Assembly (NCBI RefSeq): GCF_008298015.1 | Contig: NZ_VTPX01000001.1 | Coordinates: 62,001 to 126,000, forward strand | Reading direction: 5' to 3' | From: Salinicola corii | GTDB lineage: Bacteria > Pseudomonadota > Gammaproteobacteria > Pseudomonadales > Halomonadaceae | DNA length: 64,000 bases | Shown: positions 4,043-44,923 of the stretch, one piece after another | How the letters are laid out: each line of letters begins with the position of its first letter | Position numbering within the stretch: the first letter of the stretch is position 1 | The notes under the pieces: model-generated | The model's database searches: none | What the model was told of the DNA's origin: nothing | What the model saw: only the letters and a program-made list of their open reading frames with translations | Program-made: the position numbers and the translations under genes

Positions 4043-4696
4043 ATGTCGAACGCCGAGCTTGAAACCAACGCCCTCAACGACCAGTCCGTGAAGCTGTATC
4101 GCAACCCCAAGTCGGGCCACTGCCACCGTGTCGAACTGATGCTGGCCCTGCTCGAGGTACCCTACGACATTGTCGATCTCGACATGGCCAATGGCGCCCA
4201 CCGCGAGCCCGGCTATCTGAAGATCAGCCCTCTGGGGCAGGTGCCGGCGATCGAGGACAACGGCATCACGCTTTCGGATTCCAACGCCATCATCACCTAT
4301 CTGGTCGAGCGCTACGGTGATCCTGCCCTCTGGATCGGTACCGAGCCGCTCGAAAAGGCGCAGGTGCAGCGCTGGCTCTCGATTGCGGCGGGCGAGATCG
4401 CCGCCGGTCCCTGCGCCGCGCGCCTCGTCACCGTGTTCGATGCGCCGCTCGATCATGAGGCGGCGAAGGCCAAGGCGCACGCGCTGCTCAAGATGATGAA
4501 TGCCCATCTCGAGGATCGCGACTGGCTGGCGGCCGACAGGCCGACGCTGGCCGACATCGCCGGCTACAGCTATATCGCCCACGCGCCGGAAGGCGGTGTC
4601 GGTCTCGCCGACTATCCGCACGTCCGGGCCTGGCTGGCGCGTATCGAGGCGCTGCCCCGCTTTATCGGCATGGCGCGCTCGCCGGCGCTGGCCTGA
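4043..4696 (+). CDS. Glutathione S-transferase family protein
   Basis: 217 residues. ATG 4043 is chosen over ATG 4028 because AAGGAG (4031-4036) lies 6 bp before it. The N-terminal thioredoxin-like domain (about 17-95) includes NPKSGHCHRVELML at the active-site helix, a cis-Pro region GQVPAIED and the ESNAI-type glutathione-binding turn (DSNAIITYL). The C-terminal helical domain carries PTLADIAGYSY. It probably conjugates or reduces electrophiles with glutathione in the cytosol. It is followed after 28 bp by a flavin oxidoreductase, a likely two-gene operon under the divergent LysR regulator. Confidence 0.92.
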   Translation: MSNAELETNALNDQSVKLYRNPKSGHCHRVELMLALLEVPYDIVDLDMANGAHREPGYLKISPLGQVPAIEDNGITLSDSNAIITYLVERYGDPALWIGTEPLEKAQVQRWLSIAAGEIAAGPCAARLVTVFDAPLDHEAAKAKAHALLKMMNAHLEDRDWLAADRPTLADIAGYSYIAHAPEGGVGLADYPHVRAWLARIEALPRFIGMARSPALA

Positions 4697-37007: not shown

Positions 37008-38480
37008 TCATGGCTTCGCCAGCGGCAGCGTGAACCAGATGCATGAGCCGCGGCCGGGCTTGCTCTCGAGTGTCAGTTTCGAGTCGTGACGTTTCAGCAC
37101 ATCGGAGACGATTGCCAGGCCGAGGCCTGTCCCGTCGCCGCGCTCGCGACCATGGGCGGTGCGATAGAAGCGCTGGCAGACCAGGGCGATCTCCTCGGGT
37201 TTCATGCCGATACCGGTGTCGCGAACGCCGATCTTGAGGGTGTCGGCATTCAGGTGGAGGATGCGGATCGTGACGCGCCCGCCGGCATTGGTGGCGAACA
37301 GGGCATTGTCGACCAGGTTGGTCAGGGCGTGGTCGATCAGCTCGACATCCGCGGCCACCTGGGCCATGTCGGCTTCGTTCTCGACCGCGAGGAAGATGCC
37401 ATTCTCCTCGGCCCTGGGCCGGAACTTGCTGACGATGTCGTTGGCCAGCTCGGCGAAAGAGAAAGACTCGAGGCTCAGCGCCCGGTCGGAGATATTGGCG
37501 TGGGACATCTGTGAAAGCTGGGTGGCCAGTCGGGTCAGTCGATCCACGTTGAGACGAATGGCCTCGAGGCTCTCGCGACTGTCGGCGGAGGTCGCGGTGC
37601 GCAGCAGTTGCCGGGTGTAGCCGGACAGCGACGTCAGCGGTGTGCGGAATTCGTGGGAGAGATTGGCGACCAGTTCCCGGCGCTGACGGTCGTTGTCGTG
37701 CAGCGCCTCTACCTGCGCCTCGATGGTGGCGGCCATCTCGTTGAAGGCTCGGCCCACGCGACCGATCTCGTCGTCGATCCGGTCGGGGACGCGCTGGCGG
37801 TAGTCGCCGCGGGCGAAGTGGCGCACGGCGCGTGTCACCCGAGTGAACCGGCGGGTCAGCAACGCAAACAGCGCAAGCCCCACCACGAGAGTCAACAGTA
37901 AGGCGACGCCGGTGGCAATGAGCAGGGTCCGGGTGATGCCGCTGGTCTCCCAGATATTGGACATCGATACCTGGGTATTGGCCTCCAGCCGAACGAACAG
38001 ATAGCCCGGTGTGGCTTCGGGGCCGAAGGTCACCGGCGCTACCGAGAACACCCCTTCACCATCCTGGCAGGGCATGTCCGCATAGACCGGCAGCATGGGC
38101 ATCTCCGAGAGCAGTTCGGCGATGGCGCCCCGGTCGACCTGCTCGCCCAGACCGCACGAACCCTCGCTGTAGGCACCGACCACGCTGCCGTTTTCATCGA
38201 GAACGTATAGCGACAGCGACGGATTGATAGTCATGATCTGCTGGATGGCGGTATGCACCCGGTCGTTGTCGAGACCCTGGCTGAGTGGTGCTCGAAGGGT
38301 CTGGGCCAACTGTCGCGCCATGTTGATCTGGGAGCGTTGCAGCCATTCACGGCCCAACTGGTCGAACTGATCGACTGCGATCAGCGCGGTCGCCGCGGAC
38401 AGCGCGATCATGCTGGCCAGATAGATGAAGACGATGCGTGCGTAGAGACTGCGATAGGCTCGTCTGAGAAGTGGCCACAT
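37008..38480 (-). CDS. Two-component sensor histidine kinase with periplasmic sensor domain
   Basis: 490 residues from ATG 38480 (a GTG at 38486 overlapping the upstream stop is possible). TM1 about residues 15-36, periplasmic domain 37-185, TM2 about 186-208, HAMP 209-262, HisKA with LVANLSHEFRTPL, then HATPase with TNLVDNALFATNAGG, DTGIGMKPEE and GDGTGLGLAI. The periplasmic domain has exactly two cysteines, Cys109 and Cys138, which could form a redox-sensitive disulfide. It is downstream of an OmpR-type regulator in the same operon. The divergent neighbour encodes a Met-rich exported protein and a Met-sulfoxide-reductase-like enzyme. Confidence 0.9.
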   Translation of the reverse strand: MWPLLRRAYRSLYARIVFIYLASMIALSAATALIAVDQFDQLGREWLQRSQINMARQLAQTLRAPLSQGLDNDRVHTAIQQIMTINPSLSLYVLDENGSVVGAYSEGSCGLGEQVDRGAIAELLSEMPMLPVYADMPCQDGEGVFSVAPVTFGPEATPGYLFVRLEANTQVSMSNIWETSGITRTLLIATGVALLLTLVVGLALFALLTRRFTRVTRAVRHFARGDYRQRVPDRIDDEIGRVGRAFNEMAATIEAQVEALHDNDRQRRELVANLSHEFRTPLTSLSGYTRQLLRTATSADSRESLEAIRLNVDRLTRLATQLSQMSHANISDRALSLESFSFAELANDIVSKFRPRAEENGIFLAVENEADMAQVAADVELIDHALTNLVDNALFATNAGGRVTIRILHLNADTLKIGVRDTGIGMKPEEIALVCQRFYRTAHGRERGDGTGLGLAIVSDVLKRHDSKLTLESKPGRGSCIWFTLPLAKP

Positions 38481-38482
38481 GT

Positions 38483-39193
38483 TCACTCGGCCGCCAATGC
38501 CGGAAGGTCGGTAAAGCGGTAGCCGATGCCCCACACGGTCAGGATGTAACGCGGGTGGGCGGGATCGTCCTCGATCTTGTTGCGCAGGCGGTTGATATGC
38601 GTGTTGACGGTGTGGTCGTAACCGTCGAATTCCGCACCCCACACGGCGTCGAGCAGCTCGCCCCGGGAAAAGCCGCGGCCGGGGTGGCGGGAAAAGAACG
38701 AGAGCAGAGCAAACTCTCTGGCGGTCAGGGAGAGCGGGCGCCCATGCAGCGTCGCGCGGTGATGGGTGGCGTCGATCTCCAGATCCATCACGACGACGGG
38801 ACCGGGGTCGGACCTCCTGTGCGCGTCGACCGCTTCCCGGCGCCGCATCAGCGCGTGGATCCTCGCCACCAGAATGTCGGTGTCGAATGGCTTGGTGATG
38901 TAGTCGTCGGCGCCGATTTCCAGGCCTTCGACCACTTCCCGGGTGCCGGCAAGTGCCGTCAACATGATCAGCGGGATGGTGGCGTCCTCACGGCGGATCT
39001 CGCGGCAGACCTGCAGGCCATCGATGCCCGGCAACATCAGATCGAGGATCACCATCGACGACTCCGCCCATCGCGACAGTGCCGCTTCACCGGTACTGAC
39101 CCATTCGGTAGCGTAGCCGGCCTCGGCCAGTATGGTCTCCAGAAGACGTCCGATATCGGGATCATCCTCCACGCAGAGTATCGAGCGCGACAT
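38483..39193 (-). CDS. OmpR-family response regulator
   Basis: 236 residues from ATG 39193 (CGGAG 6-7 bp upstream). Receiver domain 1-115 with phospho-acceptor Asp51 (VILDLMLPG), Thr and Lys (TKPFD). Winged-helix DNA-binding domain about 135-232 with REFALLSFFSRHPGRGFSRGELL and the terminal RYILTVWGIGYRF. It pairs with the kinase gene that follows after 2 bp. The 190-bp divergent region to the Met-rich gene holds ATCACG-N4-CGTGAT, a candidate target. Confidence 0.93.
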   Translation of the reverse strand: MSRSILCVEDDPDIGRLLETILAEAGYATEWVSTGEAALSRWAESSMVILDLMLPGIDGLQVCREIRREDATIPLIMLTALAGTREVVEGLEIGADDYITKPFDTDILVARIHALMRRREAVDAHRRSDPGPVVVMDLEIDATHHRATLHGRPLSLTAREFALLSFFSRHPGRGFSRGELLDAVWGAEFDGYDHTVNTHINRLRNKIEDDPAHPRYILTVWGIGYRFTDLPALAAE

Positions 39194-39247
39194 GTGTGAC
39201 TCCGAGCGATCAAAGGACCGAACATAGCCGAGATACCCGGTGGAGTC

Positions 39248-39263
39248 ATCACGCGAACGTGAT
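39248..39263. promoter_or_regulatory. Candidate response-regulator operator
   Basis: ATCACG-CGAA-CGTGAT, a perfect 6-bp inverted repeat, lies 55 bp upstream of the regulator start and 122 bp before the Met-rich gene. OmpR-type proteins often prefer direct repeats, so this is only a candidate. Confidence 0.4.
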
Positions 39264-39384
39264 CGATGCAACGCGATTATTGGACGTTATGATTTCGTGA
39301 TGATTGGCGCGAAATCGCGGATTACCTTGCTATCACCGCCTCGTTCCCGAGGTGGTGTTACCGACGCAGAGTATGGAGACGGCC

Positions 39385-39705
39385 ATGATTTCGCCTAAAT
39401 CGAAGTTGCTGATTGCATTGAGTGCCACGTTGTTGAGCGGTGGCGTGTTGTTTACGAGCCTTGCCAGTGCCCAGGAAACGCAAACCGATAGTATGTCTCA
39501 AGACTCCATGGGTCAGGACAGCATGGGCCACGACGACGCCATGGGTCAGGACAACATGGGCCATGACGATGCCATGGGTCAGGACAACATGGGCCATGAC
39601 GATGCCATGGGTCAGGACAGCATGGGCCACGACGATGCCATGGGTCAGGACGGCATGAGCCACGACGACGCCATGGGTCAGGACAGCATGGATCACGATA
39701 ATTGA
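39385..39705 (+). CDS. Exported methionine-rich repeat protein (MrpX-like / MXKDX-like)
   Basis: 106 residues from ATG 39385 (GGAGA 5 bp upstream; ATG 39373 overlaps that site). A signal peptide of about 30 residues ends in SLASAQ. The 76-residue mature part contains 13 Met, one every 5-6 residues, plus His, Asp, Gln and Gly, and no Lys, Cys or aromatic residue. Five copies of M-G-H-D-D-A-M-G-Q-D-[NSG] cover residues 47-101. Such proteins could bind metals through Met/His, or act as a sacrificial sink whose Met sulfoxides are reduced by a periplasmic YedY-type enzyme, as reported for MrpX of Azospira. The two genes downstream encode such an enzyme and its membrane cytochrome. Confidence 0.82.
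   Translation: MISPKSKLLIALSATLLSGGVLFTSLASAQETQTDSMSQDSMGQDSMGHDDAMGQDNMGHDDAMGQDNMGHDDAMGQDSMGHDDAMGQDGMSHDDAMGQDSMDHDN
39523..39687 (+). repeat. Five 33-bp tandem repeats (in-frame minisatellite)
   Basis: Units of 33 bp beginning ATGGGCCAYGACGAYGCC and encoding 11 residues, with only a few base changes between copies. Because 33 is a multiple of 3, slippage would change copy number without a frameshift. Confidence 0.92.
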
Positions 39706-39765
39706 GCCATGGCCTTCCGGCGGCCACGGCCGCCGGATGCCGTCTGCGTGAAAGCGAGGTGAATC

Positions 39766-40671
39766 ATGCCATCCGGTATCGGCCCCGTCGCCAATCCCAA
39801 GCCCGATTCCAGTTCCAAGCCGGCCTCCGAGCCGGAAGCATTGGAGTCGTCTAGGTTGATCAAGCGCCATAGCTTGGGTACTCGGCTGTGGCACTGGACC
39901 AATTTTCTCTGTCTCATCGTGCTGCTGATGAGCGGTCTGCAGATATTCAACGCGCATCCGGCTCTGTACTGGGGAGAGCAATCCGGTTTCTCCGACCCCT
40001 TCATCGCGATTCATGCCCAAGCCGGAAACGACGGTGAACAACGGGGCGTGGTACGAGTCGCCGGCTACACGATCGATACCACTGGCGTGCTGGGGCTCTC
40101 CGATGACAATGGACAGCTAAGCCAACGTGCCTTTCCCCGTTGGGCGACGCTGCCGGGGGACAAGTGGCTGACCATGGGGAGAAACTGGCATTTTCTCGCG
40201 GGCTGGATCTTTGCCCCTTCGGTGGTGGCGTACCTGCTTTACACCGTGATCAGCCGTCGTCGGCGAGGCTCGATCTTTCCGACGTGGCGACAGCTGAGAG
40301 CCATACCCAGGACGATCGTCGATCACGCGCGGTTCCGTTTTCATCACGAAGCCGACTACAACGGCATCCAGAAGCTCACCTATGTCCTGGTGCTGTTCGT
40401 GCTGTTACCGATGATGATCCTCACCGGGTTGACGATGTCTCCCTTGATCAATGCGAGCTGGCCGTTGCTGACGGAGCTGTTCGGCGGCCGGCAGAGCGCC
40501 AGAACCCTGCATTTCATCTGCGCGTTTTCGCTGGTGGGTTTTTTCTTCGTGCATATCGCCCTGGTGCTGGTCTCGGGTGTCTTCAACAACCTGCGCTCGA
40601 TGGTGACAGGGCGCTATCGCATCACTGAAAGCCCGGCTGGGCCGGTGAATCGGGAGGATTCTCATGAGTAA
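39766..40671 (+). CDS. Membrane cytochrome b (cytochrome b561/Ni-hydrogenase b family)
   Basis: 301 residues. A Pro/Ser-rich cytosolic tail of about 33 residues is followed by four main membrane helices with haem-ligand candidates: RHSLGTRLWHWTNF before and in TM1, GRNWHFLAGW in TM2, LHFICAF and FFVHIALV in the last two. It probably passes electrons from quinol across the membrane to the molybdoenzyme encoded next, whose start overlaps this stop by 8 bp (ATGAGTAA). MsrQ does this job for MsrP in E. coli, but this protein is a different b-type family. Confidence 0.88.
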   Translation: MPSGIGPVANPKPDSSSKPASEPEALESSRLIKRHSLGTRLWHWTNFLCLIVLLMSGLQIFNAHPALYWGEQSGFSDPFIAIHAQAGNDGEQRGVVRVAGYTIDTTGVLGLSDDNGQLSQRAFPRWATLPGDKWLTMGRNWHFLAGWIFAPSVVAYLLYTVISRRRRGSIFPTWRQLRAIPRTIVDHARFRFHHEADYNGIQKLTYVLVLFVLLPMMILTGLTMSPLINASWPLLTELFGGRQSARTLHFICAFSLVGFFFVHIALVLVSGVFNNLRSMVTGRYRITESPAGPVNREDSHE

Positions 40672-41449
40672 GCCAGAATCGTCCGGGCCGAATCGGAGTC
40701 GGCGCCGGCTTCTCTCCGGCATGGCGGCGTTGGGGGCGGGAAGCCTGCTGGCGGGTTGCGACCGGATTACCGACAACGCGTCGGTGAGGCGCACGCTGGG
40801 TAGCGTCGAGCAACTGACCTACAAGGCGCAGCGACTGATCGCCTCTCGACAGGCGCTGGCGCAGGAGTTCGACAAGAGCCAGATCGCACCGGTCTTCCGT
40901 CCCAACGGCACGACAAATCCCCAGGAAGATTACTATCGAACCTGGGTGGAGAACGATTTCGCCGATTGGCAGTTGACGATCGACGGTCTCGTCGAGCAGC
41001 CCACGACGTTATCGTTGGCCGAGCTGGGCGCGATGCCGTCGCGAACGCAGATTACGCGCCACGACTGCGTTGAGGGCTGGAGCTGCATCGGCCAATGGAC
41101 CGGTGTACCGCTGGCGGATCTGCTCGATCGCGTGCGTCCGCGGGATCAGGCCAGGTTCGTGGTCTTTCATTGTGCCGATCATACCTACGGCGGTAGCGAT
41201 CTCTACTACGAGAGTCTCGACATGGTCGAGGCCTATCATCCGCAGACGATACTCGCCTATGGCTTGAACGATGCCGCGCTGCCGGTGGCCAACGGCGCGC
41301 CCCTGCGTCTGCGAGCGGAGCGCCAACTGGGCTACAAGCAGGCCAAGTACGTCATGCGGGTGGAACTCGTCGACAGCTTCAAGAACATTCACGGTGGCAA
41401 GGGCGGCTATTGGGAGGACAGGGGATACGACTGGTGGGCGGGAATCTGA
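40664..41449 (+). CDS. YedY/MsrP-like molybdopterin-dependent oxidoreductase, exported
   Basis: 261 residues. The Tat-type leader has SRRRLL at residues 12-17 and a hydrophobic run ending in a possible lipobox, LLAGC (Cys32), so it may be a Tat-exported lipoprotein. The sulfite-oxidase-like Mo domain has the ligand region RHDCVEGWSC; Cys135 is the expected Mo ligand, Cys141 is extra. GVPLADLL and LPVANGAPLRLRAERQLGYKQAKYV follow. Likely a periplasmic reductase, plausibly of methionine sulfoxide, fed by the cytochrome b encoded upstream. Shorter than E. coli MsrP (about 330). Confidence 0.88.
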   Translation: MSKPESSGPNRSRRRLLSGMAALGAGSLLAGCDRITDNASVRRTLGSVEQLTYKAQRLIASRQALAQEFDKSQIAPVFRPNGTTNPQEDYYRTWVENDFADWQLTIDGLVEQPTTLSLAELGAMPSRTQITRHDCVEGWSCIGQWTGVPLADLLDRVRPRDQARFVVFHCADHTYGGSDLYYESLDMVEAYHPQTILAYGLNDAALPVANGAPLRLRAERQLGYKQAKYVMRVELVDSFKNIHGGKGGYWEDRGYDWWAGI

Positions 41450-41550
41450 AAAGGGGACGATGATCGCTGCCTATTTTGTATGCGCGAAGCATATGAAATT
41501 GCTGTGTTGATCAAGTCGCGTTGCCACTGAAAAGGCTCACGGAGGCTCGT

Positions 41551-42009
41551 ATGACCGCGCTTGATAAACTACAACCGCTGATCGCTACAGCCGGTCTCGT
41601 CATCCTTCGCTATAGCCTGGTGCTGATCTTTCTCGGCTATGGCCTGTTCAAATTCACCGCCTACGAAGCCGCTGCGATAGCACCGCTCACGGAGAACAGC
41701 CCCCTCTTTTCGTGGGTCAATGCCTTGCTCGGGCAGCGAGGGGGCTCGAATCTGATCGGTGTGATCGAAGTGATCACGGCCGTGCTCATCGCGCTGCGGC
41801 GGCCTTATCCCAAACTCTCTGCGCTAGGGAGCTTGATGGCCGCGTTTGCGCTGGTGGGTACGTTAAGTTTCCTGTTCACGACGCCAGACCTCGGGCTTGA
41901 ATCGGTCACTGCAGGCTTTCTGGTGAAGGATCTCACACTCCTGGGCGCTGCATTATGGACATCGGCCGAAGCGTTGCTGGCATCGAAAAGGTGTGATGAG
42001 TCTGTCTGA
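41551..42009 (+). CDS. DUF417/YkgB (RclC-like) membrane protein
   Basis: 152 residues from ATG 41551 (GGAGG 5 bp before). About four membrane helices, with the signature LRYSLVLIFLGYGLFKFTAYEAAAIAPL and SPLFSW near the N-terminus, as in the E. coli YkgB/RclC family. RclC belongs to the reactive-chlorine resistance operon. It lies 101 bp after the molybdoenzyme on the same strand, possibly the same unit or regulon. Molecular function unknown. Confidence 0.85.
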   Translation: MTALDKLQPLIATAGLVILRYSLVLIFLGYGLFKFTAYEAAAIAPLTENSPLFSWVNALLGQRGGSNLIGVIEVITAVLIALRRPYPKLSALGSLMAAFALVGTLSFLFTTPDLGLESVTAGFLVKDLTLLGAALWTSAEALLASKRCDESV

Positions 42010-42025: not shown

Positions 42026-43095
42026 TCAGGCGCCGGGGTCGACCAGGATCTTCACCTGCGCCTTGTCGGCGAGCAGCGCCTCGAACCCCTGGCTGACCAC
42101 GTCGTCCAGGGCGATGCGTGCGGTCACCAGATCCTCGGCGCGGTAGTAGCCCTGCTGCATCAGCGCGATCACCGCGGGGTAGATATGGCGATAGGCGATG
42201 ATGCCCTTGAGCGTACGCTCCTGGATCACCAGTTGGTTGGGATGGATCGCCGCCTCCGACTCCCAGATGCTGACGATCACCGTCTCGCCGCCGGCGTGGC
42301 TGCTGGCGATCGCCTGGTTGAGCACGGTGGGCAGGCCGGTGACCTCGAAGGCGATGTCGAAGCCGCCATCGCTGGCCGCCACGAGCCGCTCCACGATGTC
42401 GCCTCCGTGGGGTCGTGCACGACCGCGCCCAGTTTGCTGGCGCGCTGCTTGCGCGCGGCGGAGACTTCGACCGCGTGAATCGACGCCGCGCCGGCGGCCT
42501 TGAGCGACTCGATCACCATCAGCCCGATCGGCCCGGCGCCGAACACCACCGCGCTGTCGCCCGCCTTGAGTGAACTCTGGCGCACCGCGTGCAGGCCGAC
42601 CGCGGCAGGTTCGACCAGCGCGCCCTGCTCGTAGGAGAGTGCATCGGGCAGCCGATGCACCATATGCTCACCGACCACGGTGTACTCGGCGAAGCCGCCG
42701 CCACCGCCGGAGAGCCCGTGAAAGCCCAGCTGCGGGCTCAGGTTGTAGCGTTCCATCAGATAAGCGCCGTCGCGGTGGGGCGAGAGAATCGGTTCGATCG
42801 CCACCCGGTCGCCTACCGCCACCCGGGTCACCGCGCTGCCCACGTCGACCACCTCGCCGGCGAATTCGTGGCCCATGACGATGGGCGCCCGGTCGTGGCT
42901 CAACGGGTGCGGCGAGTCCACCGGGATGAAGATCGGCCCGGCGGCGTACTCGTGCAGGTCGCTGCCGCAGATGCCACAGGCGGCGACCTTCACCTTGACC
43001 TGGTGCGGGTCGCCCAGGGCCGGGACCGCGATGCGTTCGACGCGAATATCGCGCGCCTGGTACCAACGTGCCGCCGTCATGCGCTGTTCACTCAT
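42026..43095 (-). pseudogene. 2,3-butanediol/zinc-alcohol dehydrogenase with a one-base frameshift
   Basis: From ATG 43095 the frame encodes a zinc MDR dehydrogenase: CGICGSDLHEY, GHEFAGEVVDVG, and VFGAGPIGLMVIESLKAAGA. It reads correctly through GAVVHDPTE and then loses sense. The rest of the enzyme continues in another frame (VERLVAASDGGFDIAFEVTG to the stop at 42026). One missing base at about 42401-42405, where GGAGGGC seems reduced to GGAGGC, explains it: the span is 1070 bp, one short of 357 codons. Either a real inactivating mutation or a base error. Intact, it would interconvert butanediol and acetoin. It follows an FAD monooxygenase in an AcoR/sigma-54-controlled operon. Confidence 0.85.
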
Positions 43096-43126
43096 GTCAT
43101 CTTCTCCTGCCGCTGTCGTGCGGCGT

Positions 43127-44923
43127 TCAGGCCAGGTGGTGGACCGGCTGCAGGCCATAGACCGGCGTCTCGAGACCTTCGAGACGCGCCTTCAGCTGCA
43201 GCGCCAGATAGTGCGAGTAGTGGCGTGACTGGTGCAGGTTGCCGCCGTGGAACCACAGCGCCGGCTGCTGGGTCGGCTTCCACATGTTGCGCAGCTCGCC
43301 CTCCCAGGGGCCGGGATCCTTGGGCGTATCCGAGCCCAGACCCCAGCACTTGCCGACCTTGTCGGCGACCTCCTGCGAGATGATCTCCGCCGCCCAGCCG
43401 TTCATCGAGCCGTAGCCGGTGGCGTAGACGATCAGGTCGGCGGGCAGCTCGCTGCCGTCGCTCAAGCTCACCGAGTGGCGGTTGATACGGGCCACGTCGA
43501 CCCCGCTGCGCAGCTTGATCTCGCCGCTGGCGACCAGTTCGCTGGCGCCGACGTCGATGTAGTAGCCGGAGCCCCGGCGCAGATACTTGAGAAACAGGCC
43601 CGAGTCGTCGGCGCCGAAGTCGAGCAGGAAGCCCGCGCGTTCGAGACGCCGGTAGAAGTCGGCATCCTGCTCGCGGATGGCGTCGAAGGCGGGGCGCTGG
43701 AAGTCGGGCAGCAGCCGGTAGGGGATCGAGGCGAAGATCAGATCCGCCTTGTCGGTGGTGATGCCGTTGGCCAACGCCTCCTCGGAGTAGAGCGGGCCGA
43801 GGGCGTGCTGCATCAGCGAGTCGGATTTGACGATATGGGTCGAGGAGCGCTGCACCATGGTCACGTCGGCGTCGTTCTCCCACAGCGCGGCGCAGATGTC
43901 GTGGGCCGAGTTGTTGGCGCCGATCACGACCACCTGCTTGCCGCGGTAGGCGTCGGGGCCGGGGTGACGGCTGGAGTGGTGCTGCTCGCCGGCGAAGTCG
44001 TCGGCCCCGGGGAAGTGCGGCACATTGGGCACGCCGGACATGCCAGTGGCGAGGATCAGCTGCTTGGGCTTGAGCGTCAGCGGCTGGCCGTCGCGCACCA
44101 CTTTCACCGTCCATTCGTGGCTGGCCTCATCGAAGCTGGCGCTCTCGCACTCGGTGGCGCTCCAGTAGTTGAGCTCCATCACCCGGGTGTACATCTCCAG
44201 CCAGTCGCCGATCTTGTCCTTGGGCGCGAATACCGGCCAGTTGTCGGGGAAGGGCAGATAGGGCAGGTGGTCGTACCATACCGGGTCGTGCAGACACAGC
44301 GACTTGTAGCGCTTGCGCCAGGCATCGCCGGGGCGCTCGTGCTTGTCGATCACCAGGGTCGGCACGTTCATCTGGCGCAGGCGGGCGGCGAGGCCGATGC
44401 CGCCCTGGCCGCCGCCGACGATCAGACAGTAGGGCTGGCGTGTGATGCCCAGCTCGGCGGTCTCGCGCTCGCGCGCCTCGCGCCAGGTCTCTCGCGCCTT
44501 GTTGGCGCCGTGCTCGGCGCCCTTGGGGCGGTGGTGTCCCCGCGGCTCGGGGTAGTCGTTGAGCGCCTGCAGGGTGGTCAGCAATGTCCAGCACCTGCCT
44601 GCCTTCAGGCGCAGCAGCCCCTTGCCGGTGGCGACCCCGGTGGCAAAGGTGAACCAGGCTTCGATCACGCCATCGCTCTCGCTGGCTTCCCCGTCGAGCT
44701 GCCACTGGCCGGGGGCGGTATGCGCCAGGGTGGCCTCGAGCATCGCGGCGATCTCCGTCGGGCCCTCCAGGGTCTTCAGGTTCCAGGTGAAGGCGACCAG
44801 ATCGCGCCAATAGCCGTCGTCGCGAAACAGCGCGGTGGCGCGCGGAATATCATCGGCGCGCAGGGCGGCGTCGAAATCCGCCAGCCACTGTTCGGCCTGC
44901 TGGGTGGAGGGGGATGCTGGCAT
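43127..44923 (-). CDS. Flavin-containing monooxygenase (Baeyer-Villiger/FMO-type) with N-terminal NTF2-like domain
   Basis: 598 residues. Residues about 1-130 have a SnoaL/NTF2-like fold (FRDDGYWRDLVAFTWNLKTLEG). FAD motif GGGQGGIGLAARLRQ about residue 170, substrate/NADPH region with WYDHLPYLPFP, second nucleotide motif VVVIGANNSAHDIC, and ATGYGSMN near the C-terminus. It should oxygenate a ketone or amine using NADPH and O2. Upstream are a sigma-54-type promoter and activator repeats shared with the divergent AcoR-like regulator; a butanediol dehydrogenase gene follows after 31 bp. Confidence 0.87.
   Translation of the reverse strand: MPASPSTQQAEQWLADFDAALRADDIPRATALFRDDGYWRDLVAFTWNLKTLEGPTEIAAMLEATLAHTAPGQWQLDGEASESDGVIEAWFTFATGVATGKGLLRLKAGRCWTLLTTLQALNDYPEPRGHHRPKGAEHGANKARETWREARERETAELGITRQPYCLIVGGGQGGIGLAARLRQMNVPTLVIDKHERPGDAWRKRYKSLCLHDPVWYDHLPYLPFPDNWPVFAPKDKIGDWLEMYTRVMELNYWSATECESASFDEASHEWTVKVVRDGQPLTLKPKQLILATGMSGVPNVPHFPGADDFAGEQHHSSRHPGPDAYRGKQVVVIGANNSAHDICAALWENDADVTMVQRSSTHIVKSDSLMQHALGPLYSEEALANGITTDKADLIFASIPYRLLPDFQRPAFDAIREQDADFYRRLERAGFLLDFGADDSGLFLKYLRRGSGYYIDVGASELVASGEIKLRSGVDVARINRHSVSLSDGSELPADLIVYATGYGSMNGWAAEIISQEVADKVGKCWGLGSDTPKDPGPWEGELRNMWKPTQQPALWFHGGNLHQSRHYSHYLALQLKARLEGLETPVYGLQPVHHLA

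Follow-up and report, generated by a model that had tools for sequence, protein, structure and literature searches.

A two-component gene pair that faces away from genes for a methionine-rich (Met-rich) exported protein, a cytochrome b and a molybdopterin enzyme raises the question of what such a set does outside the inner membrane and which signal switches it on. We examined this for positions 37008 to 42009 of a 64,000-nucleotide stretch (the window, to which coordinates refer unless a contig, locus or accession is named) covering 62001-126000 of contig C11 in the 4.66-Mb genome of Salinicola corii, a member of the Halomonadaceae (the family, below). The kinase and regulator genes lie on the minus strand, divergent from the Met-rich, cytochrome and enzyme genes on the plus strand, the last two sharing an 8-bp overlap (Table 1). 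We consider it probable that the locus is a dedicated periplasmic methionine redox buffer, i.e., oxidant-sensing control of a sacrificial Met-rich protein plus a reductase. An earlier note on this DNA had mapped six genes here, all of which were found at the same places and on the same strands; the exported Met-rich protein that it described was also recognized, with a signal peptide visible by eye and 13 Met in the approximately 77 residues that follow it.

Five genes kept together in the Halomonadaceae

Matches to the enzyme gene were sought in 275 family genomes (274 besides the window's own). The 61 loci kept, the window's included, were all those with an E value of ≤3.2e-94, weaker or partial matches being excluded, and approximately 11 to 13 kb were read around each; L125, which lacks the enzyme gene, was left out of the locus count, and L122 holds the enzyme only. 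A two-component arrangement, with kinase and regulator divergent from cytochrome and enzyme, was present in 37 of the 61 loci, and the gene order was kept in every one of these 37, a Met-rich open reading frame (ORF) always lying between regulator and cytochrome. This gene-order survey, which the earlier note had proposed, upheld the order of the five genes and left the adjoining DUF417 gene outside it, intact in just 3 of the 37 loci. Halomonas sp. PA16-9, also of the Halomonadaceae, has the same five-gene layout and an enzyme 85% identical to the window's. The kinase, regulator, Met-rich, cytochrome and enzyme genes form a real unit.

The other 24 family loci are of a different make. The S. 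corii genome itself carries a second cytochrome b561–enzyme pair, with a TetR-type regulator, on contig C12 (18000-31000; locus L004, 3760-6879); its enzyme is 58% identical to the window's, an exported protein to which Pfam assigned no family (presumably DUF5666-like) is encoded upstream, and no Met-rich ORF was found beside the pair. Eighteen of the 24 loci have, downstream of the enzyme, a gene whose product is 25 to 31% alike to this C12 exported protein, four have a C12-type exported protein and a TetR gene upstream, and two have neither.

Because tblastn with the window Met-rich protein recovers only part of the 37 loci, Met counting was used instead. An ORF judged by eye to be exported, and the first gene of the operon, has 9 to 16 Met (median 12) in its last 60 residues in all 37 two-component loci, while the other four proteins contain 2.2% Met. 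The same procedure applied to family loci without the two-component genes gave at most four Met in the best ORF, whether the 700 bp preceding the cytochrome gene (23 loci) or the 700 bp following the enzyme gene (24 loci) were read. In the 37 regulator-cytochrome gaps, the opposite strand gave 0 to 10 Met, with 9 or 10 in 7/37, because CATG repeats encode Met on both strands. The Met-rich ORF between regulator and cytochrome is thus not due to chance, and the gene is tied to the two-component version of the locus. The window protein scores 59.8 bits against the penta_MxKDx model TIGR02953 (cut-off, 41), a cut-off reached in just 18 of the 275 family genomes. The last 60 residues of the 37 proteins hold 17 to 30 acidic residues, 0 to 9 His, no Cys and almost no large hydrophobics. 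With Met constant while His varies, Cys is zero and hydrophobics are rare, this pattern fits selection on methionine itself and not on a fold or a Met-His metal site.

Two further observations concern the repeat. It is strongly expanded in L070 relative to its near relative L071, and repeat number changes fast. L125 (G200:C1:749000-762000) has a 475-aa (amino acid) open frame with several penta_MxKDx-like stretches, and the 13 kb around this frame gave no match to any of nine query proteins.

Sensor, operator and reductase of the unit

The kinase is laid out as a periplasmic Cache/PAS-like sensor flanked by two transmembrane helices, and aligns end to end with OrhK of uropathogenic Escherichia coli (UPEC) CFT073 (26% over 491 aa). 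The response regulator is 47% alike to OrhR over 230 aa, versus 34% to HprR. A profile built from the first 205 residues of the 37 family kinases scored 15/15 OrhK-type sensors at 49.5 to 97.3 bits, 14 other kinases of the fetched loci at ≤6.2 bits and HprS at 7.8 bits; by these scores the sensor homology to OrhK is specific. The sensor cysteines Cys109 and Cys138 also occur in the kinase of Halomonas sp. PA16-9. A model of residues 1 to 215, made from 10 sequences (predicted local distance difference test, 74.8; predicted template modelling score, 0.54), shows a helix, a mixed sheet domain and a helix, both cysteines lying in loops beside strands where confidence is moderate. Its fold matches in the PDB were weak to moderate, and the Cache-type sensors KinD, DctB and CitA were among the matches listed.

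Searches with the enzyme at an E value of 1e-40 were extended to the order (390 genomes, 7 with a match, 5 of those in the family) and to the class (369 genomes, 12 with a match, 3 of those in the family). None of the 11 outside-family loci fetched, one of them (L233) incomplete, had a window-type kinase sensor, so that the version of the kinase with the Cys pair looks confined to the family, on this sample. L239 and L230 do have a kinase and a regulator nearby, divergent in L239 and on the same strand in L230, with sensor-profile scores of −1.3 and 6.2 bits, respectively. L230 also has a Met-rich ORF with EF-hand-like text, noted by eye, directly upstream of the cytochrome gene (4108-4482), and its enzyme gene is followed, 2.8 kb downstream, by a DUF417 homologue.

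OmpR-type regulators bind direct repeats, and a tandem direct repeat, CGTTATGATTTCGTGATGA, was drawn as a pattern from the alignment of the 37 regulator-to-Met-rich gaps. It is present within at most two mismatches in all 37 two-component loci, 25 times exactly, and the reversed pattern never fell below four mismatches in the same gaps; upstream of the cytochrome gene in 23 loci without the two-component genes the best match had at least four. Across the genome, a slightly longer pattern matched exactly once, at the window site, and four times more with two or three mismatches, its backwards control matching once. The 37 loci hold 59 matches (≤2 mismatches) inside the regulator–Met-rich gap and one elsewhere. 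An inverted orientation, facing the regulator gene, is seen in 22 of these 59, each in a different one of the 37 loci, so that autoregulation of the two-component genes is likely. The regulator would bind the predicted operator; a promoter scan gave no useful result.

The cytochrome belongs to PF01292 and not to PF01794, the family of MsrQ, and gave no match to the MsrQ model NF003831 at an E value of 0.01. Its His142, His187, His249 and His263 are conserved in 60/60 family cytochromes, and it is likely, from its family and conserved residues, to be a quinol-fed electron donor. A twin-arginine translocation (Tat) motif, SRRRLL, and a lipobox with Cys32 as its last residue are present in the enzyme. 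After the lipobox Cys comes Asp in 59 of the 61 family enzymes and Glu in the other 2; Asp at position +2 of a lipoprotein is a sign of inner-membrane retention in E. coli. The named loci were the 80, out of at least 589 confirmed, that most resembled the E. coli protein; here the lipobox pattern was found in all 79 enzyme ORFs read, followed by Asp or Glu in 28 of these 79. The lipobox is lacking in E. coli K-12 MsrP and in the genome's own MsrP, whose N termini were compared. Kept in the relatives and lacking in these two MsrPs, it suggests that the enzyme branch of the window is probably a membrane-tethered reductase; no paper on a YedY with both lipobox and Tat motif was found in the open-access literature. 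Cys135 of the enzyme we take to be the molybdenum ligand. The genome also has canonical MsrP and MsrQ genes on contig C6, this MsrQ being a PF01794 protein that scores 244.3 bits against NF003831.

Table 1. Features of the locus in the window. Positions are nucleotides of the 64,000-nucleotide stretch.
Feature	Position	Strand	Length	Characteristics
OrhK-type sensor histidine kinase	37008..38480	−	490 aa	Pfam HisKA, HAMP, HATPase_c
Cys138 codon of kinase sensor	38067..38069	−		invariant in 37/37 family loci, absent from 14/14 OrhK-type kinases
Cys109 codon of kinase sensor	38154..38156	−		invariant in 37/37 family loci, absent from 14/14 OrhK-type kinases
OmpR-type response regulator	38483..39193	−	236 aa	Pfam Response_reg, Trans_reg_C
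Inverted operator copy (predicted)	39246..39263	−		weaker, regulator side, 5 mismatches in the window
Predicted operator, tandem direct repeat	39285..39303	+		upstream of the Met-rich gene
Met-rich exported protein	39385..39705	+	106 aa	MxKDx-repeat family (MrpX-like), TIGR02953
33-bp tandem repeat	39502..39698	+	6.0 copies	encodes the Met/Asp repeat of the Met-rich protein
Cytochrome b561 (Ni_hydr_CYTB), membrane	39766..40671	+	301 aa	PF01292, 99.5 bits
Tat-exported sulfite-oxidase-fold molybdopterin enzyme, MsrP-like	40664..41449	+		PF00174, 120.6 bits
Lipobox LAGC ending in enzyme Cys32, then Asp	40748..40759	+		predicted lipid anchor
Cys135 codon of enzyme	41066-41068	+		one of the positions at which at least 98% of the 61 family enzymes agree
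DUF417 protein	41551..42009	+		PF04224, 75.5 bits; neighbor outside the conserved unit

Relatives with other regulators

In Azospira, the Met-rich MrpX and YedY1 are reportedly under SigF/NrsF control. A likeness to such MrpX/YedY1 systems had been proposed in the earlier note and is borne out by the MxKDx protein, the cytochrome and the MsrP-like enzyme; its view that a kinase and an OmpR-type regulator stand in for SigF/NrsF also holds, a scan of 13 proteins encoded between 34013 and 47433 having turned up no extracytoplasmic function (ECF) sigma factor and no NrsF. These three effectors are likewise described for the SigF/NrsF system and for BcrS/AbcS–BcrXQP of Brucella, an ECF-controlled set reported to be induced by hypochlorous acid (HOCl) and to contribute to HOCl resistance (PMC8315932); the Azospira and Brucella systems have an ECF sigma/anti-sigma regulator, in contrast to the two-component pair of the window.

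The combination, which the earlier note had not seen described, turns out to have a precedent in UPEC. OrhK/OrhR of CFT073 is reported to activate c3566-c3567-c3568 on peroxide, c3566/c3567 to protect against tert-butyl hydroperoxide and hydrogen peroxide, and c3568 to be a Met-rich MrpX homologue; deletion mutants grew more poorly on tert-butyl hydroperoxide (PMC8550376). There, too, a kinase and an OmpR-type regulator are divergent from an operon for a cytochrome b, a lipobox molybdoenzyme and a Met-rich protein, and besides the homologous sensor and the kinase and regulator similarities given above, the enzymes are 35% alike. The relation was found at the protein level; when the window operon was compared with E. 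coli genomes as DNA, there was no match. The differences are that c3568 falls short of the penta_MxKDx cut-off (35.2 bits), that the Met-rich gene is last in the UPEC operon and first in the window's, that OrhK lacks the sensor Cys pair, and that the published OrhR site, TCACA-N15-TGTGA, shares a GTGA half-site with the window tandem but differs in arrangement. In addition, the UPEC operon is reported to be co-transcribed with a hemolysin operon (PMC8550376). In E. coli K-12, the two-component genes HprSR likewise face away from an operon for a periplasmic methionine sulfoxide reductase, hiuH-msrP-msrQ, but that locus has no annotated Met-rich gene, MsrQ in place of b561 and an MsrP without lipobox, and by profile score the HprS sensor is unrelated to the window's.

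An OrhR-like regulator (≥57%) stands beside the operon in 15 of the best 80 named loci, one more (L144) being distant; ECF genes cluster in 13 of the 80 and NrsF-like genes in 12. One of these loci, L154, was confirmed to have an ECF sigma factor, NrsF (PF06532), a PF01292 cytochrome, a PF00174 lipobox enzyme and an MxKDx protein, and L158 and L176 resemble it by eye. With the same effectors found under two-component and under ECF/NrsF control, these comparisons indicate that the effector module is common to them and that the regulator is swapped. An enzyme tree was made from 16 of the 37 two-component enzymes, 12 of the 24 other family enzymes and part of the named ones, excluding the outside-family loci nearest to the window. 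It places the genome's own MsrP remotely on a very long branch and the sampled family enzymes apart from the sampled named ones, the latter having been chosen because they resemble the E. coli protein; the OrhKR label requires six changes on it. The different electron donor proposed in the earlier note stands against E. coli MsrQ but not against L154, whose cytochrome, 214 aa long and by eye with a shorter segment between its first two helices than the window's, is also of PF01292; the donor type is therefore not new and was rejected as a novelty. The overall gene kit, as judged from its homologs, is already known from other bacteria, and what appears distinct to the window branch is the invariant sensor Cys pair, the Met-rich gene in first place and an operator of its own.

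Three observations on the E. coli-type loci stand apart. RefSeq flags the CFT073 cytochrome gene c3566 as frameshifted (NC_004431, 3415551-3416149; L129, 152-750), although deletion phenotypes are reported for it (PMC8550376). Relatives of the c3567 enzyme are on 134 PLSDB plasmid records (58 Escherichia, 13 Klebsiella; 77 typed conjugative). L131, on a contig labelled Chryseobacterium (Bacteroidota), is an OrhKR-type locus with regulator and enzyme as E. coli-like as those of Enterobacter loci, which would reflect either a mislabelled or contaminated assembly or a recent transfer.

Proposed function and its rivals

In the proposed buffer, the kinase would respond to periplasmic oxidative stress, most simply via its two sensor cysteines, and phosphorylate the regulator, which would bind the tandem operator and switch the operon on. 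The Met-rich protein, acidic and presumably disordered, would be secreted and oxidized to methionine sulfoxide, thereby sparing essential envelope proteins; the lipid-anchored molybdoenzyme would re-reduce it with electrons passed from quinol through cytochrome b561.

Several points weigh against this reading. The enzyme scores 110.9 bits against the MsrP equivalog NF003767, below the cut-off of 207 and against 473.5 for the genome's own MsrP, so that we infer its methionine sulfoxide substrate. OrhK is without the Cys pair yet reported to be peroxide-responsive, so that sensing in that branch does not depend on the cysteines, and in the family kinases the pair could form a disulfide with a structural role. 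Small-ligand binding is common among Cache sensors, and the resemblance of the sensor model to such domains makes a small-molecule ligand possible. The 37/37 operator count is partly circular, the pattern having been derived from the same 37 sequences, although its controls are not. Lastly, loss of the operon might be masked by the canonical MsrP/MsrQ and the second cytochrome-enzyme pair.

Among the alternatives, the enzyme might mainly repair ordinary periplasmic proteins in the manner of MsrPQ, with the Met-rich protein as a minor or regulatory partner. The divergent HprSR–hiuH-msrP-msrQ locus does without an annotated Met-rich gene, 23 of the 24 other family loci have cytochrome and enzyme without an adjoining Met-rich ORF (≤4 Met per 60 residues), and the UPEC phenotypes, as reported, concern c3564-c3567 and not c3568 (PMC8550376). 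We nevertheless regard such a role as unlikely given a Met-rich ORF in 37/37 two-component loci, first in the operon. Slightly less plausible still is a metal buffer, in which Cu(I) or Ag(I) would be bound by the Met/His/Asp repeats and sensed by the kinase. Several periplasmic proteins bind Cu(I) through Met, and copper, too, is reported to induce E. coli msrPQ, through CusSR (PMC9302797); the window repeat contains His, and against the heavy-metal kinase model the window kinase reaches 146.5 bits, under the cut-off of 292.55. But His is not conserved, with at most one in the last 60 residues in 14 of the 37 proteins, Cys is absent from that segment in all 37, no copper gene was found among the 13 proteins scanned around the locus, and the constant partner is an enzyme like methionine sulfoxide reductase.

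The version of the earlier note, a chlorine-specific island that includes an RclC-like DUF417 protein, is very improbable. In three loci (the window's, L066 and L069) the DUF417 gene does lie next to the operon and in its orientation, but it is absent or a remnant in the other 34 loci (a 40-residue remnant in L067), its product scores 54.1 bits against the RclC equivalog NF040476 (cut-off, 275), and the 102-bp gap before it holds no operator; DUF417 was therefore rejected as a core part. The UPEC relative, moreover, is reported as protection against reactive oxygen species (PMC8550376). The sequence by itself does not point to chlorine in particular, the UPEC relative having been reported with peroxides and the Brucella relative with HOCl. 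Beyond DUF417, at 42026-43158 on the minus strand, a zinc-type alcohol dehydrogenase appears to be split over two overlapping frames (ADH_N and ADH_zinc_N), by a frameshift or a sequencing error.

A more specific form of the methionine redox buffer is offered tentatively. The family kinase would be a direct periplasmic redox sensor in which Cys109 and Cys138 form an oxidant-driven disulfide within a Cache-like domain, controlling one operon through one tandem operator. In this closed circuit, the tethered reductase and a disposable Met/Asp substrate would set the periplasmic methionine redox state, and elsewhere unrelated sensors, two-component or ECF sigma, would be wired to the same buffer. 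If true, periplasmic methionine buffering would be a stand-alone module re-wired to different oxidant sensors, and the family would offer a model, probably non-pathogenic, with one operator and one operon. Two questions are thereby made testable, namely, oxidant sensing by a Cache-type kinase through a cysteine pair and, in contrast to the MsrP–MsrQ pair, an MsrP-like family that would work as a lipoprotein tethered to the membrane next to a b561 donor.

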